Below are positions 2,228 through 45,554 of a DNA stretch of 50,061 bases, in pieces (position 1 is the stretch's first letter; every line of letters starts with the position of its first letter). A program made the position numbers and the translations under genes. Origin of the DNA: Chitinophaga pinensis (GTDB lineage: Bacteria > Bacteroidota > Bacteroidia > NS11-12g > UBA9320). The stretch is from NCBI GenBank assembly GCA_945907065.1, contig CAMDSC010000017.1, positions 1 to 50,061 of the forward strand. Reading direction: 5' to 3'. Under the pieces are notes generated by a model. It was not told the origin of the DNA. It was given only the letters and a program-made list of their open reading frames with translations, and searched no databases.

Positions 2228-5200
2228 CTATTTAAGAATGAGAGTTACTGTTCCCGAAAACAAAGGTTTTATTTTTTCTGACTCCCCTTTGTATTCGCAA
2301 ATATAAAAGTAGGTTCCTTCGGGACATGGCCTTTTTCCATTGTTTACATTGCCATTCCAACACTCGGTAAAATCTTTGGTTTCAAACATTTTTTGTCCCC
2401 AGCGATTAAAGATGGTAAGTTTAAATTTTGAACATTCATTCAATCCTCCGTCAAAATGAAAGCAATCATTTAGTCCGTCGCCATCAGGTGTAAATGCATT
2501 GACAGGTATTAATTTATCAGCCGGTGTTCCATTTATTTGTACCTCTAAAAAAGTGGTATCTGGACAAAGTTTATCTGCATCTACTATTAATAGAATTTTA
2601 TATACCCCCGCAGTTTTATATTCATGCACGCCCGGGTTATTTACATCACTGCTTGTACTATCTCCAAAATTCCAGATGATGGTTTCAAAATCGCTGCTTT
2701 TATTAATTATTTCTACCTGACTTGTGCATTCAAATTGTTTTATTTCAAAAGCGGCATCACTTCGTTTCACGATATTTACAATATGGGTGGCTGTGTCGGC
2801 CACATTGCAAGTGTTGGAGTCAATAGCGGTTAATTTTATGGTATATTTTCCAACATCCGGAAAACTATGTTTTGGGTGTTTGTCTGTAGAAGATTTACTA
2901 TCCCCAAAATCCCAAATGTAGTGATTGTTTCCTAAGCTTTGATTGGTAAATTGAACATCTGCGGGACCACAAGCTGTTACATCCGGAATAAATTTAGCTT
3001 TTACAAACGTGCTTATTTGAAAATCTATTTTAAACGCAGCATTACTGCAACGCCAGCTTACATTTATAGGAAAAGCAGAATTAGGAGTAGTTGGAAAATC
3101 ATTCAATGTGCCCCCGGGATCATCAGGGCAACTGGAACATACGGATTGGTAAATTACTCCCCGTTTATCAAACCGGCTAGTGCCTCCATCCACATGGTCT
3201 TCAGATTGATTACCTCCGTAATAGGTTGCAAACAGAAGGCTTGAAAGATTTTTACCAAACACAGCCAGATAAAAATCATTATTATCGGTAGTAGTTTGCA
3301 AAGCATTTGAAGTAATAGGTAAATTACGTGTGGTTCCTAATCTCACAATGGCCGAACCCCAGCCGGATAAATAAATATTACCACATGAATCCACTAAAAA
3401 TGCCGATGGCGAAATTTCAGGAACATGCTGACGAGCGCCAAATACTGTTTGTTTTTTTATAGTATTCAAATAAGCATCGGCAATAAGAATAAACTGCCCG
3501 GTATTGGCTTTGTTACTATAAACCCCTTTAGAAACTGCAATATCTCCTTCCGTTTGCCCGGTAGCATACACATTTCCAGATTTATCTATTTCCAAAAAAT
3601 AAATCTGGTCATATTTATCAGTGCCATAATAGGTGGCTTTTTGCAAAGCAAAAGTGGTTTTATTGTAAACTGCCATAAATCCATCGCGCAGCCCATTATT
3701 ATTTTTGCTTATAGCACCGATATGGGTTGGCAAATTTGAGCTCAAGGTTCCTCCGGCAATGTATATATTTTCGTTTTTATCAAACTCAAGGCTATAAATA
3801 CCATCGCTGCTATTTCCCCCAAAATAAGTGGACCATAGTAATTGATCCAAATCTTTCGAAAACTTTAAACACAACCCATCTGCCGGTCCTTCAAGTGCAG
3901 ATTTTGAGGCATTTTTTAAAGGTATATTATTTGAATTGGTTCCTGTAACGACAAATATATTATCTGCCTTATCGGTTAATACTTCCCCTCTAAATTCGTC
4001 GGCATAATTATATCGCAAAGCGGCATCTGTTAATCCATCGTGATTATTTCCTCCAAAAAAAGTGGAGCCGTTTAATTGATCTCCATTTTTTGATAGTTTA
4101 AAAATTACAATATCTGTAAATGTATCCTTTAATGTATAGCTATTATGCGTGTTATCATATCCATTTCCTTTCATAGGAAAGTTATCAGAATAGGTTGTTC
4201 CAAATACCACCAATTCAGTATCGCCATTAACAACCATACTGTGCGGATAATCATCATCACTTCCGCCTATATATGTAGCATAAAGCAGGGTTTTACCACT
4301 CGAATCATATTTGCTTATTGTAATATCACAAGGTAAATTTACTGGCGCTCGTCCTAATCCTCCTTTACAAATTGTTTGAAATGCGCCAACTGTTACCGGA
4401 TATTCGCCATGGGTATTATCTGTAATTCCTCCGGCATACAGGTTTCCTCTTAAATCAAATGTGGCTGTATAACCAAAATTATCACCCCGTGAGCCGGAGT
4501 AGGTTGAGAATATTAAAATCGGGTCAATTACTAACGGTAATTCATGGTTATAGCCATTGGGGAACTGATAAGAAATTCGGTTTTTGTTTAAAACATAATT
4601 GCATTGTAATCCTAAATAATAAACCTTTTTTAAGGTGCCGCCACTTTGCCAAGCTTCTAAATTTTTATCAATAAAACTTCCTATACTCGTATTTAATACC
4701 AAACTATTTCCTTTTGAAATTACTGAATCCAATCCTTCTAATTCTAACTCAATTTGCGAAGCATCAGCATTAGGGCTCACCATCCATTCGTATTTTATTT
4801 GCCCGTATTTTGAATACACTTTTAAATCAATTCCTCTATATACATTGGTATAAATAACCTCTGAAAATACCGAAACATTAGAAGCCCACTTGCTTTTGTT
4901 GTTTCCTAAAAAATAATTAAACTTTTCTTTAAAGGGTTTTTGGCCGTTGACCCCGATGTTATTTTTACTATTGTAAAATTTGTATTTAAAAACATGGCCA
5001 TGAATGATTGGATTTTTAATTAATGTATCCTTTTGCAAATGCTGATGGGCTTTGCGATATTCCGTTTCATTAAATACTTTAAAAGTAATGGCATTTTGTT
5101 CCAAAAAAACATAACCCGTATTTAACTGAACTCTAAAAAGAACCTCCTTTTCAAACTGGCCTTGGTTTTCAACAAATTGCAATGCCTCATTATCCTGAGC

Positions 5201-39094: not shown

Positions 39095-40108
39095 TTAGTA
39101 ACTACTGGCCACTCCTCTAATATTTCTTTCTAAGGCAGAAATCTGATCTTCCATTTTTTTGAAGAATTTGGCTCGTTGTTTTTCAGCCGTTCCGCTAAGT
39201 AGCAATGATTTTTTTGTAAGGTTTTCCATCCAAAGTTTAGTTTCTTTAACGAAGGAGGCATTGTAGGTAGAAATACTATTAAAGGTATTGTGCCCCAAAA
39301 ACACCCGTTGGCCCATTTTGGAATCGCCCGGCTCAATTAATACCTGATTGTTTCCAATCATAACTTCCGAATTATAAAGCATAAACTGGCCTCGTGTGTT
39401 CGGATCATTTTTATAACTGTTTTCACAATTGGTTTTCAATTCATCCATCATCTGTCGCATTTCATCTGTAACCAGTAATGCCTGATCACTATTTTCAAAT
39501 AAATCCGATTCCCAAAAAAACTCAACCTGTTTGAGGGAGCTGATAAGTGTTTCCTCTGTCCAAATTTCAATGCTGTTAATTTGCGAATATGCATTGTAGG
39601 TTTTTTTATTAATATCTATTATTTCTTGAGGAACGATATCAGGATTAAATTTTTTACCCTGAAAAAACTCACTGTTTAAAACCGCTTTGCTCCAATAAAA
39701 ACTTTTAAAGGCTGATAGATTAGAATAATTAAAATGCCTAAATAATGGAACATCATCCGCAGCATAAATAATTCTGGTTCCAGGAATTGCAGCCAATTGC
39801 GTAAGATAATCCGAAAACCATTTCAAGTACTTTCCAAAGTTTGATTTTTCTTCAAACATGGGATTAAAGTTAAAGTTAACTTGCAATGAATCTACAGCCA
39901 ATAAGCCATCTACCGATACTCCAAATTTTTTGGATATGGTAGCTACCTCATCAAATGAAAAACCGCTTTGACATCTTAATCGTCTGTAAATACTATCGGT
40001 TGAAACATTTAGTAAATCAGCCAATTCATCGGCCAAACTGATATTTGGAGCAATTAATGATTTAAGTTGTGCTACAAATTTTTCCTGAAACTGAAATCCG
40101 TCATTCAT
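39095..40108 (-). CDS. XRE-like HTH transcriptional regulator
   Basis: 337 residues. The N-terminal helix-turn-helix (about 20-72) is visible as ISLADELADLLNVSTDSIYRRLRCQSGFSFDEVATISKKFGVSVDGLL. The remaining 260 residues form an alpha-rich effector or dimerisation region (FYWSKAVLNSEFFQGKKF, LKQVEFFWESDLFE, MMDELKTNCENSY) of a type seen in Bacteroidota regulators, with no recognised ligand. It is divergent from the SDR operon across 218 bases that contain TTGCA-N5-TGCAA and several TGCAACT half-sites, which are its most likely operators. Autoregulation and control of 40327-42935 and 43242-44381 are inferred. Confidence 0.82.
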   Translation of the reverse strand: MNDGFQFQEKFVAQLKSLIAPNISLADELADLLNVSTDSIYRRLRCQSGFSFDEVATISKKFGVSVDGLLAVDSLQVNFNFNPMFEEKSNFGKYLKWFSDYLTQLAAIPGTRIIYAADDVPLFRHFNYSNLSAFKSFYWSKAVLNSEFFQGKKFNPDIVPQEIIDINKKTYNAYSQINSIEIWTEETLISSLKQVEFFWESDLFENSDQALLVTDEMRQMMDELKTNCENSYKNDPNTRGQFMLYNSEVMIGNNQVLIEPGDSKMGQRVFLGHNTFNSISTYNASFVKETKLWMENLTKKSLLLSGTAEKQRAKFFKKMEDQISALERNIRGVASSY

Positions 40109-40196
40109 ATATTTTAAATATTATCTGCAATCCAAACAACTTTTTATGATCTGGCCTGCAATTGAACTAACAAATGAACATTTAAATAATTGAATA

Positions 40197-40243
40197 TTGC
40201 AACTAATTTTAATAAAAAATTAGTATTGTTGCAAAAAATGCAA
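40197..40243. promoter_or_regulatory. Operator region in the divergent regulator/SDR intergenic space
   Basis: TTGCAACT at 40197-40204 is followed by a 9-bp inverted repeat ACTAATTTT/AAAATTAGT with a 5-base spacer (40202-40224). Then comes the dyad GTTGCA-AAAAA-TGCAAC (40228-40244; core TTGCAAAAAATGCAA, 40229-40243). Another TTGCAACT half-site lies at 40302-40309, just before the SDR gene. The core dyad is identical to one upstream of the CsgG-like gene. Confidence 0.5.
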
Positions 40244-40326
40244 CTATTTTAAAAATAATTGCCCAACCATAATTAGTATAAATTCGGCAATTAATAAACA
40301 TTTGCAACTGTGAATTTTAATATATA

Positions 40327-41313
40327 ATGAAAAGAGTTTTTGTAACCGGAGCAGATGGAATGCTAGGCAGCAGTATATGCCGAGAATTATTACAACAGGG
40401 TTTTGAAGTGAAAGCATTATGCTTTCCTGCCAGTAAAACTGGCACTTTAAATGGGCTGCCAATAGAAATTGTACTTGGCGATGTATCGGATAAAGACTTT
40501 TTATTGCGTGAAATGAAAGGTTGTCAATTTGTAATTCATGTGGCTGCATTAATGACTTTATGGCCCAGACGCAATGATAAAATGAAGTTTGTGAATATTC
40601 AAGGCACCAAAAATGTGATGGAAGCAGCCCAAGAACTTAAATTAGAGCGTATGATTCATATTGGCACTGCAGCCTCCTTTGCTAATGGCTCAAAAGAAAA
40701 TCCCGGCAATGAAAATAACCCATTTGTTGGAGGCAAATTTAAGATGGACTATATTGATAGTAAATTTCAGGCTCAGCAGATATTATTGGAAAACCACAAG
40801 AAAACAGGATTTCCGGTGATAATTCTAAATCCAACATTTATGATTGGCCCCTTTGATTCAGGACCATCGTCAGGTCAGATGTTGATTGCTATTTTTAAAA
40901 ATACCTTAAAATGGTATAATCAAGGAGGGAAAAACTTTGTGTGCAGCACTGATGTGGCCAAAGCTGCAGTAAATGCAATATCAAAAGGTACTTTAGGCCA
41001 ATGTTATATTACCGGTAACGAAAATCTGGAATACAAAGAGTTTTTTGTAAAAGCGTTTAAACAAATGAATAAACCTTTTAAAATGAAAGGTGTTCCAAAC
41101 GCGGTGCTGCTAAGTGCCGGGTTTTTAAGTTCGATACTGGCCCGAATTACTGGCAAAAAGCCAAAACTAAGTTATGGCATCGCTTTGCTAGCTAAGGAGG
41201 ATAATTACTTTTCATCAGCTAAAGCGATGAAGGAATTAGATATGCCTCAAACTCCTATTGAAATAGGAATTGAGCAATGTTTAGAATGGTTTAAAGCAAA
41301 TAAATATCTATAA
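40327..41313 (+). CDS. Extended SDR (NAD-dependent epimerase/dihydroflavonol-reductase-like)
   Basis: 328 residues. The extended-SDR nucleotide loop TGADGMLG (7-14), HVAAL (71-75) and the catalytic YxxxK as Y142-I-D-S-K146 are intact. It is followed by an extended substrate-binding part (NPTFMIGPFDSGPSSGQ, CSTDVAKAAVNAI). This fold acts on nucleotide sugars, ketones or sterol/terpenoid-type alcohols; the specificity here is unknown. The gene is first in a unit with CPBP and a second SDR, divergent from the HTH regulator. Confidence 0.88.
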   Translation: MKRVFVTGADGMLGSSICRELLQQGFEVKALCFPASKTGTLNGLPIEIVLGDVSDKDFLLREMKGCQFVIHVAALMTLWPRRNDKMKFVNIQGTKNVMEAAQELKLERMIHIGTAASFANGSKENPGNENNPFVGGKFKMDYIDSKFQAQQILLENHKKTGFPVIILNPTFMIGPFDSGPSSGQMLIAIFKNTLKWYNQGGKNFVCSTDVAKAAVNAISKGTLGQCYITGNENLEYKEFFVKAFKQMNKPFKMKGVPNAVLLSAGFLSSILARITGKKPKLSYGIALLAKEDNYFSSAKAMKELDMPQTPIEIGIEQCLEWFKANKYL

Positions 41314-41403
41314 TTGCAGAGTAAATCAATAATTATTATTAATAACCCCATTACAATTAGTTTTATTTTTTCACTACATCATTTAATAAAATAAAAAACC
41401 TGA

Positions 41404-42123
41404 ATGACCCCTAACTATAATTGGAATCCTGAATATGCCGATGCCACAATAACCATTCTTTCTGTTTCAATTGGCTTTGCCATTTATTGGTTTTTATCAT
41501 TGAGTGAAAAGATAAAAACACTTTTTTTTAAAAAATTCTCAACCGAAAATGCATGGATTGCCTATGTGTTTTTTCAAAAAATGATGGGTGTATTGTTTTT
41601 GGGAACAATTCCAGGAATAATTTTACTTTTAAATTCAAACTATACCTTGACTGATTTAGGAGTAGCAACAGGAAACTATAAAGAATCATTGATTTACATT
41701 GCTATAATTGGTTCGGTAATATTTGTAATTAACTTTTTTGCATCCAAAAATCCTTTCAATTTGGCCATTTATCCGCAGATGCGAATAATGGAATGGAACC
41801 GGAAAAAAATCATCATCAACTCAATTGGGTGGGCTATGTATTTATTTTCTTATGAATTGATGTATCGTGGTTTATTGCTAATGGTTTGTTATCACTCATT
41901 TGGGTTTTGGCCTGCCGTAGCTATTAATCTTTGCTTTTATTCAGCTACTCATATTGCCAAAGGATTAAACGAAACTATTGGAACTTTTCCATATGGGCTG
42001 TTACTTTGTTATGTTACTATTTCTACAGGAAGTATAGCTGTGGCATTTGTAACCCATTTAATTTTGGCACTTACCAATGATTATTTTTCAGTGTACCACA
42101 ATCCTAAAATGAAATATGTATGA
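41404..42123 (+). CDS. CPBP-like intramembrane protein (degenerate motif)
   Basis: 239 residues with about seven membrane helices. The CPBP (ABI/Rce1-type) signature region is recognised, but motif 1 reads YELMYRG (150-156), where the usual EExxxR begins with two glutamates; the first is Tyr here. Motif 2 is YSATH (H183) and motif 3 begins at H218 (THLILALTND). CPBP proteases cleave peptides in the membrane or process prenylated proteins. With one Glu missing this one may be altered or inactive. It overlaps the next SDR gene by 4 bases (ATGA), so the two are translationally coupled. Confidence 0.75.
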   Translation: MTPNYNWNPEYADATITILSVSIGFAIYWFLSLSEKIKTLFFKKFSTENAWIAYVFFQKMMGVLFLGTIPGIILLLNSNYTLTDLGVATGNYKESLIYIAIIGSVIFVINFFASKNPFNLAIYPQMRIMEWNRKKIIINSIGWAMYLFSYELMYRGLLLMVCYHSFGFWPAVAINLCFYSATHIAKGLNETIGTFPYGLLLCYVTISTGSIAVAFVTHLILALTNDYFSVYHNPKMKYV

Positions 42124-42935
42124 AATCCTTTTTTAATCAAAAGGTAGTTATCATTACGGGTTCATCGATGGGTATTGGCAAATCATTGGCAATGCTTTTA
42201 GGGAAACAAGGATCTCATGTTGTTTTAAATGCAAGAAATGAGGATAAATTATTGGCAACCGAAACCGAATTGAAAAATGCCGGATGCAATGTAATAAGTT
42301 ATGCAGGTGATATGAGCAAGGAAGAAGATTGTAATGGGTTAATTGCTAAAACCATTGAACACTATGGTAAAATAGATATCCTAATAAATAATGCAGGTGT
42401 ATCCATGCGAGGTATGATGGAACAATTATCACCCAACTTAGTTTCAACAATTTTTAATACAAATACTATTGCCCCAATTATACTTTCTCAAAAAGCAATA
42501 CCATACATTAAGCAAACCAAGGGAAGTATTCTGTTCATATCAAGTTTGGCCGCAATGCGGGGATTGCCATTAATATCCATTTATTGTGCCTCTAAAATGG
42601 CTTTGACCGCTGTATCGGAATCTATGAGGATAGAAACCAAACCTGATGGTATACATATAGGAATAGTGTATATTGGTTTTACAAAAGCAGAAGACGATAA
42701 AACAGTATTAAATACTGAAGGAATACCAATATTATTGGGCGAAAGAAATGGTGCATTTAATTTAACCACCAATAAAGTTGCAAAAAAAATAAGCCAAAAT
42801 ATTGAATTAAGGAAAAATAAAACTGTGATTGGAATATCCGGAAATCTGTATTATTTCCTCTCAAAATTCTTCCCTAGGCTTTTGGAATTAATAATCACAA
42901 GGTCACAAAAACAAGTAAAACAGCTTTCCAAATAA
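42120..42935 (+). CDS. Classical SDR oxidoreductase
   Basis: 271 residues. The TGSSMGIG cofactor loop (13-20), NNAG (90-93), catalytic Ser141 and Y155-C-A-S-K159 are all present, so it should be an active NAD(P)-dependent dehydrogenase/reductase. The C-terminal segment YYFLSKFFPRLLELIITRSQKQVKQLSK is amphipathic to hydrophobic, suggesting membrane association as in Dhrs7/11-beta-HSD-like SDRs. It is the last gene of the three-gene unit. The substrate is unknown, but two SDRs and a CPBP membrane protein suggest a lipophilic metabolite. Confidence 0.9.
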   Translation: MKSFFNQKVVIITGSSMGIGKSLAMLLGKQGSHVVLNARNEDKLLATETELKNAGCNVISYAGDMSKEEDCNGLIAKTIEHYGKIDILINNAGVSMRGMMEQLSPNLVSTIFNTNTIAPIILSQKAIPYIKQTKGSILFISSLAAMRGLPLISIYCASKMALTAVSESMRIETKPDGIHIGIVYIGFTKAEDDKTVLNTEGIPILLGERNGAFNLTTNKVAKKISQNIELRKNKTVIGISGNLYYFLSKFFPRLLELIITRSQKQVKQLSK

Positions 42936-43110
42936 CTAGACTAAGTTTTTAAACGAGGATGAACGTATTACTGTCCGTTTAAAAGATTGATTTATTTATA
43001 ATATTTACCCTTTTTTTAGATAAAAAGATTTCACAATACGCAAATAGTCCTAATTTATTTTGCAGGGATTACTAAAGCAAAATCAACCCAACTTTCAAAT
43101 TATTAAAAAA

Positions 43111-43157
43111 CGCAACTTTACTTGCGATATATCAATTAATAATTGCAAAAAATGCAA
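43111..43157 (+). promoter_or_regulatory. Two dyads upstream of the CsgG-like gene
   Basis: The dyads are CGCAA-N6-TTGCG (43111-43126) and TTGCA-AAAAA-TGCAA (43143-43157), the latter identical to the one at 40229-40243. They lie 85-131 bases before the ATG at 43242 in a 306-base gap with no other gene. Control by the HTH regulator at 39095-40108 is inferred from the shared sequence. A 9-bp inverted repeat TTTTAAACG/CGTTTAAAA is also present at 42947-42984. Confidence 0.5.
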
Positions 43158-43241
43158 ATTTTGTAAACATTAGCTGTATTGCCAATTTTAATAACCTATT
43201 TAATTAGCCAAAATTTGTATCAACAAATAAATTATAAAATC

Positions 43242-44381
43242 ATGAAAAATCTAAAAAACACAATCGAAAAATTATTCCTCTCATTATTACTATTAGGAGC
43301 ATCGGCTTTTGCAAAAGCACAAAATGAAGCCAAACCTTTAGCGGCGGTGCTTAGTATTGAAAGTAAAGGGGTTATTAACAACACCGAATCGGTAAGCTAT
43401 ATGGTACGGCTTGAACTTGAAAAATTAAATGTTTACAATATCATGGATAAATATGACATGGCTGAATTGGTGAAAAAAAATGGAATTGACATAGCTTCTT
43501 GTTATGGAAAATCATGTGTGGTAGCAGCTGGAAAGAGCCTTGGTGCAGATAAAATGATAACTGGAAGTATTGAACGCTTTGGCGAAAAAATTGTAATTTC
43601 ATTAAAAGTAATTGATGTAAAAACTGAAACTGTTGAAAAACATGATGCCACTGAATATCAAAATTTACAACCTGAATTGCAGCGTATGATTACAATTTCT
43701 GTTCAAAAACTTTTAGGCATTCCTACCAATATAGATGTGGTGAATGTATTGGTAAACTATGAAGCACCTATTTCCAGTCCTCAAACTCAAGTAAAACTAA
43801 GCGGCCCACGGATGGGTGCATCTATGGCATTTGGCGATGCTGGCACAGTGCTTACTGCCCCAAAAAGCCAAGGCGGATTTGAAATGTATCCTGCCAATTT
43901 TCAAATCGGATGGCAATTTGAAAAACAATATATAAGCGCCGGAAATTTTCAAGCTTTGGTAGAGTTTGTTCCAATGATAGGTGGATTGGAGTCTGGAAAA
44001 TTTATACCTTCTTTTACTTTTCTCAATGGTTTTAGAATGGGTAAAGGGGGTTGGGAATTTGCATTTGGACCTAATTTTAGGGTAGTTACAAAAGCAGATG
44101 GTTTTTTTGATACTGACAATACTTTAGGTAAAGGAAATGATGCCTGGCATTTGGAAAAAGATTGGACTCTTCCTGCTGAAAATCCTTACACTATTGAAAA
44201 CCGTTTGGATAGCCGTGGATACGGAACACTTTCTACTAGCCTGTTTATGGGAATTGGTCGTACTTTCAAATCAGGATACTTAAATATTCCGGTCAACATA
44301 TATGTATTACCGCGCAAAGAAGGAACCATTGCAGGTTTTTCATTCGGGTTTAATATTTATAAAAAACCTAAAGTGATTTAA
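43242..44381 (+). CDS. Secreted CsgG/TolB-N-like protein with beta-barrel-type C-terminus
   Basis: The ATG at 43242 gives 379 residues with a signal peptide (about 1-26, FAKAQ); the frame opens upstream at a TTG that would spoil the signal, so it is not used. The N-terminal domain (about 30-140) is CsgG/TolB-N-like: AAVLSIESKGVINNTESVSYMVRLELEKLNVYNIMDKYDMAELVKK, then KSLGADKMITGSIERFGEKIVISLKVIDVKT, an alpha/beta fold seen in periplasmic and outer-membrane assembly proteins. The rest is glycine- and aromatic-rich, possibly a small barrel. The role is unknown. Its upstream dyad is shared with the SDR operon. Confidence 0.75.
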   Translation: MKNLKNTIEKLFLSLLLLGASAFAKAQNEAKPLAAVLSIESKGVINNTESVSYMVRLELEKLNVYNIMDKYDMAELVKKNGIDIASCYGKSCVVAAGKSLGADKMITGSIERFGEKIVISLKVIDVKTETVEKHDATEYQNLQPELQRMITISVQKLLGIPTNIDVVNVLVNYEAPISSPQTQVKLSGPRMGASMAFGDAGTVLTAPKSQGGFEMYPANFQIGWQFEKQYISAGNFQALVEFVPMIGGLESGKFIPSFTFLNGFRMGKGGWEFAFGPNFRVVTKADGFFDTDNTLGKGNDAWHLEKDWTLPAENPYTIENRLDSRGYGTLSTSLFMGIGRTFKSGYLNIPVNIYVLPRKEGTIAGFSFGFNIYKKPKVI

Positions 44382-44402: not shown

Positions 44403-44720
44403 ATGCGCAACTTAATAATCATAACATGTATGGGGCTTTTATTAGTCTCCGCAGTTATACAAAAAGACTGGCCCGACCTTTCAAAAAAGGAGGATTTGAA
44501 GGCACTTGGCACAGGCAAAATAGTTGAAACGGATAAGTGTATTATTACAAAAATAATTTTAGAAGAAGTAAATGATTATTCAATCGTTTATATAAAAAAT
44601 GAAAGCCAGCACGATATGGCAATAGATAAAATAAGTCGTATTGAATTTAACGAAACAAAATGGGGTCCCTTGAAAATTGAATTTGAAAATGGCAAACCAA
44701 GGATAACTCTTTTTGAATAA
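44403..44720 (+). CDS. Small exported or membrane-anchored protein, unknown
   Basis: 105 residues, starting 21 bases after the CsgG-like gene and therefore probably in the same transcript. The N-terminus is hydrophobic (NLIIITCMGLLLVSAV), a signal or anchor. The rest is acidic and lysine-rich with strands such as CIITKIILEEVNDYSIVYIKNES and GPLKIEFENGKPRITLFE. I recognise no family. A 56-bp perfect palindrome follows its stop. Confidence 0.55.
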   Translation: MRNLIIITCMGLLLVSAVIQKDWPDLSKKEDLKALGTGKIVETDKCIITKIILEEVNDYSIVYIKNESQHDMAIDKISRIEFNETKWGPLKIEFENGKPRITLFE

Positions 44721-44867: not shown

Positions 44868-45554
44868 ATGTCTGAACTATTCCATTTCATCTGGATATCA
44901 TTGGCGGGTATTGTGCTAATTTCATTAGCTGAATGGATGTATCATACCCAAAAAGTTCATGTAGAAATTACCCGAAAAATAGTTCACATAGGGTCGGGAT
45001 TGCTGGCACTGCTGCTTCCGGTTTATATTCATAATCAATGGTTGGTTTTGTTAATGTGTGGGTTAGCCCAATTGGTTTTGGTTATTAGTATTAATCGCGG
45101 TTTTCTAAAAAGTATTAATGCCGTGAAACGAAAATCCTATGGAAGTATCCTTTTTCCAATGGTAGTGTATTTGGTTTACTTGGCGTGGTATTACTCCGGC
45201 AGCAGGCAAGATGAAGTGGTTCAATCGTATGCATATTTTCAACTGCCCATATTAATTCTGGCCCTTTGCCATCCTTTGGCCAACTGGATTGGGTTATACT
45301 ATCCCATCATCAAATTCAAACATCAAAATAAAAGTTTAGGCGGCATGCTGGCTTTTTGGAGTCTGGCATTTTTGCTAAGTTGCATTATACTTCTTGCCAC
45401 ACACCTTTTTAATACCAAAGACATAACATGGGTAGCCATATTTATAGCCACCCTTACCACCACCACCGAAATTTACAGCAAAAAAGGATTTAGTAACCTG
45501 TTTATACCTGTTGTGGTATTGCTGGCACTTTATGTGGTGGAGTATTTCTTTTAG
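44868..45554 (+). CDS. Polyprenol/phytol-kinase-like (CDP-alcohol/dolichol kinase superfamily) membrane protein
   Basis: 228 residues with about seven membrane helices. Family signatures are TRKIVHIGSGLLALLLPV (35-52), KRKSYGSILFPMVVYL (87-102) and KSLGGMLAFW (155-164). These fit VTE5/SEC59-type kinases that phosphorylate isoprenoid alcohols or diacylglycerol. The strongly conserved Asp of the DPLA segment is replaced by His here: LCHPLANWIG (133-142). It may be inactive or use a different mechanism. The gene is monocistronic and ends before a shared terminator. Confidence 0.78.
   Translation: MSELFHFIWISLAGIVLISLAEWMYHTQKVHVEITRKIVHIGSGLLALLLPVYIHNQWLVLLMCGLAQLVLVISINRGFLKSINAVKRKSYGSILFPMVVYLVYLAWYYSGSRQDEVVQSYAYFQLPILILALCHPLANWIGLYYPIIKFKHQNKSLGGMLAFWSLAFLLSCIILLATHLFNTKDITWVAIFIATLTTTTEIYSKKGFSNLFIPVVVLLALYVVEYFF

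Follow-up and report, generated by a model that had tools for sequence, protein, structure and literature searches.

Many XRE-type proteins are repressors; CRP, at class I promoters, activates from a site that lies upstream of the promoter at preferred distances; and the archaeal regulators of the TrmB family (PF01978 plus PF11495) pair a helix-turn-helix (HTH) with an effector domain that is phospholipase-D-like (PLD-like). The operator of TrmB is a palindrome, given in PMC4158304 as TATCAC-N5-GTGATA. Another palindrome with an N5 spacer, the 15-bp dyad TTGCA-N5-TGCAA, occurs twice in a 50,061-nucleotide stretch of Chitinophaga pinensis (contig CAMDSC010000017.1, positions 1 to 50,061; hereafter the window), once between the divergent genes for a BetR/XRE-HTH regulator and the reductase SDR1 and once before the gene for a CsgG-like secreted protein. 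The dyad is probably the operator of this regulator, which would act as an activator of the SDR1-CPBP-SDR2 genes, the CsgG-like gene and a distant gene of the FA_hydroxylase family.

The locus resembles each of the described systems in part. As in XRE/cI-type regulators (lambda cI, the C-proteins), the N-terminal 70 to 87 residues of the regulator align with lambda cI and other XRE domains (Z up to 8.9) and match BetR, but the protein has about 260 extra residues with a PLD-like prediction, and its candidate sites lie well upstream of the promoter. With TrmB it shares the arrangement of an HTH plus an effector domain, and the C-terminal part of its model aligns, among other PLD-type structures, with TrmB (Z 7.3, root mean square deviation [rmsd] 3.4 over 120 residues) and with TrmBL2 (Z 7.5, rmsd 3.6 over 132 residues). 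In contrast to TrmB, its HTH is of the XRE/BetR type, its host belongs to the Bacteroidota, its candidate operator is a different one, and none of the five Pfam families that it matches at E 0.1 is a TrmB domain (PF01978 or PF11495). The dyad centre, at about -72, recalls CRP class I promoters, although CRP is an unrelated protein and the promoters here carry a TAnnTTTG-type -7 box. The CsgG-like protein recalls the CsgG, TolB_N and LpoB domain proteins through weak N-terminal similarity in some members, but the window protein has no match above cut-off, and its long C-terminal half lies outside those matches. The regulator gene is on the minus strand and is followed by SDR1, CPBP, SDR2, the CsgG-like gene and a gene for a 105-amino-acid (aa) protein, all on the plus strand:

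39095 to 40108, minus strand: regulator, 337 aa, with an N-terminal BetR/XRE HTH and a C-terminal part predicted to be PLD-like, without the HKD motif (from Pfam, the AF2 model, VIA-align and a motif check)
40171 to 40174, minus strand: candidate -7 TTTG for the regulator gene's own promoter, on the other side of the dyad and 62 bp from its centre
40197 to 40204, plus strand: half-site TTGCAACT, preceding the first dyad by 32 bp
40229 to 40243, no strand: candidate operator dyad TTGCAAAAAATGCAA in the regulator/SDR1 divergent region
40301 to 40304, plus strand: candidate -7 TTTG of SDR1, 65 bp from the dyad centre
40327 to 41313, plus strand: SDR1, an extended SDR (Epimerase/3Beta_HSD), nearest in NCBIfam to HpnA, below cut-off
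41404 to 42123, plus strand: CPBP (Rce1-like) membrane protein
42120 to 42935, plus strand: SDR2, a classical SDR (PRK06181-like; 220.9 bits, cut-off 215)
43111 to 43117, plus strand: half-site CGCAACT, preceding the second dyad by 33 bp
43143 to 43157, no strand: candidate operator dyad TTGCAAAAAATGCAA upstream of the CsgG-like gene
43183 to 43187, plus strand: -33-like element CAATT, 31 bp upstream of TTTG and at the same place in G003, G004 and G005
43214 to 43217, plus strand: candidate -7 TTTG for the CsgG-like gene, at a distance of 64 bp from the centre of the dyad
43242 to 44381, plus strand: CsgG-like secreted protein, 379 aa, with weak DUF3280/TolB_N similarity in its N-terminal part
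44403 to 44720, plus strand: small secreted protein, 105 aa, behind the CsgG-like gene here as in G001 to G005

The dyad is associated with the regulator gene among distant relatives too. The regulator alignment supplied 58 loci, labelled Bacteroidota or plain "bacterium" apart from one Rickettsiales entry taken as mislabelled. Upstream of the 58 regulators, 19,860 bp contained 18 exact dyads, spread over 16 loci, compared with 2 in the 612,428 bp elsewhere in the same loci (the CsgG-promoter site of G004 and one in L176). When 58 regulators (the window's included, L181 left out) were clustered at 60% identity, 10 of the 25 clusters had the dyad; among the first members of the clusters 8 of 25 had it, against a shuffle mean of 0.06 and a maximum of 1 in 300 shuffles. 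With one mismatch allowed, the 5-bp spacing gave 31 instances where 1.95 were expected, followed by spacings of 8 (9 versus 2.04 expected) and 12 (6 versus 0.88), and among perfect 5+5 dyads with spacers of 0 to 15 TTGCA-N5 ranked first in both count and ratio. In one locus (L134) the regulator is preceded by three dyads at 31-bp intervals (upstream of 557). Dyad pairs exactly 83 bp apart, with a TTGCAA word between them, were seen in L136, L146 and L170; the second dyad of each pair has one mismatch, and the first is exact in L136 and L170 and has one mismatch in L146.

In other lineages the dyad accompanies the regulator beside differing neighbors, which by eye read like lipoprotein- and ferredoxin-like genes and others in addition to CsgG-like and SDR1 genes. 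Because the dyad is tied to the regulator amid such changes, control of both the SDR1-CPBP-SDR2 genes and the CsgG-like gene by one regulator, as the sequence-only reading had it, is the best reading; the single pathway that it also proposed is not established. A correlation between recognition helix and operator was considered and dropped, as the L065/L168 regulator (VNVDAAYRRIRG) resembles dyad-less relatives yet has the dyad.

The window pair itself was confirmed as two identical 15-mers at the positions listed, and these are the only exact matches to TTGCAAAAAATGCAA in the whole 2.7-Mb source genome (G000); the palindrome observation is stronger than could be seen from the window. TTGCA-N5-TGCAA was found twice in the window where 0.20 was expected, and 1 of 100 shuffles also gave 2. 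Genome-wide the pattern occurs at 22 places, of which 14 fall within open frames of at least 70 aa, one more reads by eye as the end of a coding frame, and another (C1 246505, L001) falls in what looks like a tRNA gene and counts as a false match to the pattern. Placement in intergenic regions only, which had lent weight to the pair, therefore applies to both window copies but not to the dyad across the genome, and the dyad alone defines no regulon, given the 14 places in open frames. A chance pair of AT-rich words would be compatible with the shuffle result and with these coding occurrences, but it is contradicted by the enrichment upstream of regulators and sits poorly with the orthologous and distant conservation, the preferred spacing and the promoter distances, so that its probability is negligible.

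The accompanying half-sites fared less evenly. TGCAACT is present at 40198, 40239 and 40303, but the word is not enriched in the window (11 versus 7.62 expected; 19 of 100 window shuffles reached 11), and the copy at 40303 is more likely part of a promoter than a half-site because it overlaps TTTG at 40301-40304, the probable -7 box of SDR1. CGCAACT at 43111 is likewise present, but the further dyad in which it had been placed, CGCAA-N6-TTGCG (43111-43126), is not kept in two related genomes (G004 and G005), which retain just its GCAACT part. The half-sites at 40197 and 43111 do stand at a distance from their dyads, 32 and 33 bp, that recurs in relatives.

Six other genomes of the genus (G001 to G006) were compared at the orthologous regions. 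The regulator is 62 to 91% identical to the window protein in five of them; G001 has a 3' remnant only (L028 8159-8278), and the family profile found no other regulator member in that genome. In the alignment of orthologous promoters called for by the sequence-only reading, 3 of 5 regulator-SDR1 regions carried the exact dyad, as did 4 of the 6 regions that precede the first CsgG-like gene; for the latter, G005 has a one-mismatch dyad and G003 half-sites only. In 9 of the 14 genus regions read, a half-site lies 31 to 33 bp, about three helical turns, upstream of the dyad, a count that includes G003 (upstream of a second half-site) and the one-mismatch dyad of the G005 CsgG-like region. Anywhere in the genus genomes, the combination of half-site and dyad occurs 23 times, a number of them in coding frames, and in the source genome it occurs 3 times, at the two window sites and once inside a frame. 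Gene content around the regulator varies: the CsgG-like gene stands nearest to the regulator or its remnant in G002 and G001, CPBP was seen among the genus loci only in the window, G004 and G005 (the G006 contig ends in SDR1), neither CPBP nor SDR2 was found in the stretch read in G003, and the pair of CsgG-like and 105-aa genes is tandemly duplicated in G005 (L023 8640-11735).

The dyads also keep preferred distances from candidate promoters. When every TTTG was counted in 61 regions, with one dyad mismatch allowed and 3-bp bins, distances from dyad centre to TTTG peaked at 64, 114-115 and 147 bp (10, 9 and 10 matches), whereas in 2,000 random shifts the top bin never exceeded 8 and the third peak never exceeded 6; the window distances are 65 bp (SDR1) and 64 bp (CsgG-like). 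Sites upstream of the promoter at preferred distances are what a class I activator would be expected to have. On the regulator side the dyad centre is separated from the candidate TTTG by 62 bp in the window and by 63 bp in G004 and G005, and one dyad may therefore serve both directions. That these are promoters is supported by CRATT, which stands 31 bp before TTTG in 20 of 68 regions, no other distance between 15 and 45 being seen in more than 4, with the qualification that this element was picked after the sequences had been viewed; CCGTT replaces it at the same place in several other promoters. According to PMC9723704, the TAnnTTTG box of Flavobacterium psychrophilum extends from -12 to -5, which would put the dyad centre near -72.

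A search of the genus genomes returned eight instances at a distance of 64, two of which (G002 15530 and G005 150233) were set aside as coding by eye; the remaining six are SDR1, CsgG-like, FA_hydroxylase and secreted-protein promoters. Nearby distances were also filled (six at 61, five at 65 and five at 69), so the 64-bp peak is modest in this list before coding instances are removed.

The same operator and regulator could instead serve repression, or a ligand-dependent switch that combines autorepression of the regulator gene with activation of its divergent neighbor. XRE proteins are, as a general matter, often repressors, and in several loci (among them L140, L149, L131, L148, L168, L142, L135 and L136) the dyad starts 14 to 58 bp from the regulator start while its centre lies 106 to 148 bp from the partner's TTTG, an arrangement that suits autorepression. 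However, the dyads favor positions 64, 115 and 147 bp from TTTG without overlapping it, the trans targets likewise sit at 64, and the window regulator's own candidate TTTG is not overlapped. Repression is considered unlikely.

Combining the dyad with a TTTG at these distances yielded further candidate targets, which are the best sign of a trans regulon, though they are few. On contig C25 of the source genome, an intergenic dyad at 4291, with TAGTTTTG at distance 64, lies 92 bp before a gene that matches FA_hydroxylase at 4.7e-24. In G004, another dyad at distance 64 precedes a secreted-protein gene that is a homologue (32%, E 3.7e-52) of the divergent neighbor of the dyad-bearing regulator in L168. 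A dyad with a half-site 31 bp away and TTTG at 145 is found on C56 of G004 and C16 of G005 before a gene that is 31% identical to, but different from, the FA_hydroxylase gene of the source genome; the target is uncertain here because a second gene, which by eye reads like thymidylate synthase, faces away from the same region. Only a candidate is L208 (G032, distance 64), where a 125-aa open frame runs across the site on the opposite strand. L002 and L004 of the source genome have TTTG at 146 and 145, but their genes start 302 and 270 bp away and they are not claimed as targets.

The regulator itself has a recognizable DNA-binding domain. Residues 1 to about 75 form an XRE-type HTH, with a BetR (PF08667) match of 24.9 bits against a Pfam cut-off of 21.6, and BetR was matched in 53 of the 58 family members at E 0.1 or better. 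An AF2 model built from the 58-sequence alignment reached a pLDDT of 89.5, compared with only 35.5 for single-sequence folding, and has a C-terminal part of mixed strands and helices. Among the 50 structural matches listed, 22 span this C-terminal domain; 19 of these we take to belong to the PLD superfamily (Z 7.0 to 8.9), TrmB and TrmBL2 included, with F13 (Z 8.6, rmsd 3.8, 157 aligned) and FAM83B (Z 7.6, rmsd 3.5, 137 aligned) as examples, and the other 3 are PrgX/Rgg2 (rmsd 7.4 to 9.0). The PLD enzyme motif HxKxxxxD has no match in the window regulator and occurs as a word in 2 of the 58 members (HFKIDTAD and HLKFDAND), where it was not placed on the model; we take the equivalent position to be Y245-x-S247 (Y in 53 of 58, S in 46 of 58). 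From the model we infer that the C-terminal domain is a TrmB-like, noncatalytic sensor.

Comparison with the RRNPP peptide receptors (ComR, Rgg, PrgX), whose C-terminal domain is helical and TPR-like, gave ComR at a Foldseek E of 0.04, with TM 0.17 and rmsd 17. In a viral structure library nothing matched at E 0.001, and the top named entries were HTH or repressor proteins. A PH domain (PF16652 in 10 of 58 regulators at E 0.1; an intersectin chain at E 0.14) was abandoned in favor of the PLD-type structures to which the folded model led. In the literature searched, which covered few subscription papers, no description of an XRE-type HTH joined to a PLD-like or TrmB-like domain was found, and no paper describing the regulator family or the operator was recognized.

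Several observations weigh against this interpretation. Exact dyads are absent within 350 bp of the regulator in 42 of the 58 loci, one 12-member cluster among them; L154 of Marinoscillum sp. MHG1-6, for instance, carries both the regulator and the CsgG-like gene yet no exact dyad. Nine dyad-less loci (L155, L160, L162, L163, L164, L167, L171, L178 and L181) have, in front of the divergent gene, TTC[G/A]ATT at a spacing of exactly 33 bp from TTTG; at this spacing TTCGATT occurs 6 times in the 58 loci, each time in the 550 bp upstream of the regulator. This word is possibly an alternative operator or an extended -33 element, and the dyad is therefore not needed for all family members. Within the genus, G003 and G006 have intact regulators yet no exact dyad in the regions read, no dyad was found in the SDR1 upstream regions of G001 and G002 or upstream of the second CsgG-like copy of G005, and G001 keeps the exact dyad and half-site before its CsgG-like gene despite having lost the regulator. 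The distance peaks include members of a single cluster (L134, L136, L139, L146 and L170), so the loci are not independent, and since 64 and 115 bp differ by about 4.9 turns the phasing is approximate. For the protein, the Z values of 7 to 9 in the C-terminal domain are middling, and a Foldseek search of the PDB with the model gave no match at E 0.001.

The retained site in G001 and the many loci that pair a regulator with no nearby exact dyad could also mean that a different transcription factor binds the dyad and counts the regulator gene among its targets. Against this, in 10 of 25 clusters, with differing other neighbors, the regulator gene is accompanied by the dyad, and the 3' end of the G001 regulator gene is still recognizable, as would fit a recent loss. 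Another factor is improbable.

If the regulator does bind there, a dimer would sit on the 15-bp dyad, assisted in many promoters by the second, weaker half-site 31 to 33 bp away, and would activate transcription from a position centred near -72, in a CRP-like class I geometry. Its targets would be the SDR1-CPBP-SDR2 operon, the CsgG-like gene and the FA_hydroxylase-family gene elsewhere in the genome, and probably also the regulator gene itself, through the dyad that it shares with SDR1. The degenerate PLD-like domain would be the likely ligand sensor, and the system might help to make or place an envelope lipid. If correct, this would be an unstudied and testable regulatory circuit that ties the regulator to an operon of enzymes, to a gene resembling fatty-acid hydroxylases and to a secreted protein that is conserved, and for which sequence alone supplies a regulator family, a 15-bp operator, promoter distances and a rule that finds further targets elsewhere; the union of an XRE-type HTH with a PLD-like, TrmB-like domain makes the question of the ligand testable as well. 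A more far-reaching version, which we regard as doubtful, is a regulator family, widespread in Bacteroidota, that senses a lipid or lipid head group with a dead PLD fold and acts through a three-turn, multislot operator to turn on an undescribed modified-lipid system, with the reductases, CPBP and the hydroxylase making the lipid and the CsgG/TolB-like outer-membrane protein placing or monitoring it.

Whether the coregulated genes form one pathway is a separate matter. The regulator may answer to the state of the envelope and switch on several unrelated envelope functions, a possibility that falls only a little short of even. The partners vary by lineage (CsgG-like, SDR pair, lipoprotein-like and FA_hydroxylase), and the partner in L141 resembles a CDP-alcohol-transferase by eye; on the other hand, SDR1, SDR2 and FA_hydroxylase could share one lipid substrate. 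Across the 58 loci, partner genes are CsgG-like in 28, SDR1 in 9, SDR2 in 6 and CPBP in 2, with CsgG-like or SDR1 in 32, and further partners may go unseen where a locus runs to the end of its contig. Of the 54 nearest divergent genes of at least 90 aa, 21 are CsgG-like and 7 are SDR1-like. SDR1 scores 253.6 bits against HpnA, where the cut-off is 367.65.

The CsgG-like protein, which has no name of its own, is the usual partner in the regulator loci. Its label, taken from the sequence-only reading, is a weak one: the window protein matches no Pfam family at E 0.001, and PF03783 is missing from it at both E 0.001 and E 0.1, but 2 of 27 homologues match PF03783 at E 0.1 (best 1.6e-4). Weak similarity in the N-terminal part was found to DUF3280 (8 of 27), LpoB (4 of 27), TolB_N (3 of 27) and CsgG (2 of 27), and a profile search of PDB sequences returned nothing at E 1; by eye, the C-terminal half looks like an outer-membrane beta-barrel. 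The 105-aa secreted protein encoded behind it had no Pfam match at E 0.001. Nor did a 228-aa membrane protein encoded farther along the window (44868-45554), which by eye reads like the dolichol/phytol-kinase type and has counterparts in the cluster stretches of G002 to G005.

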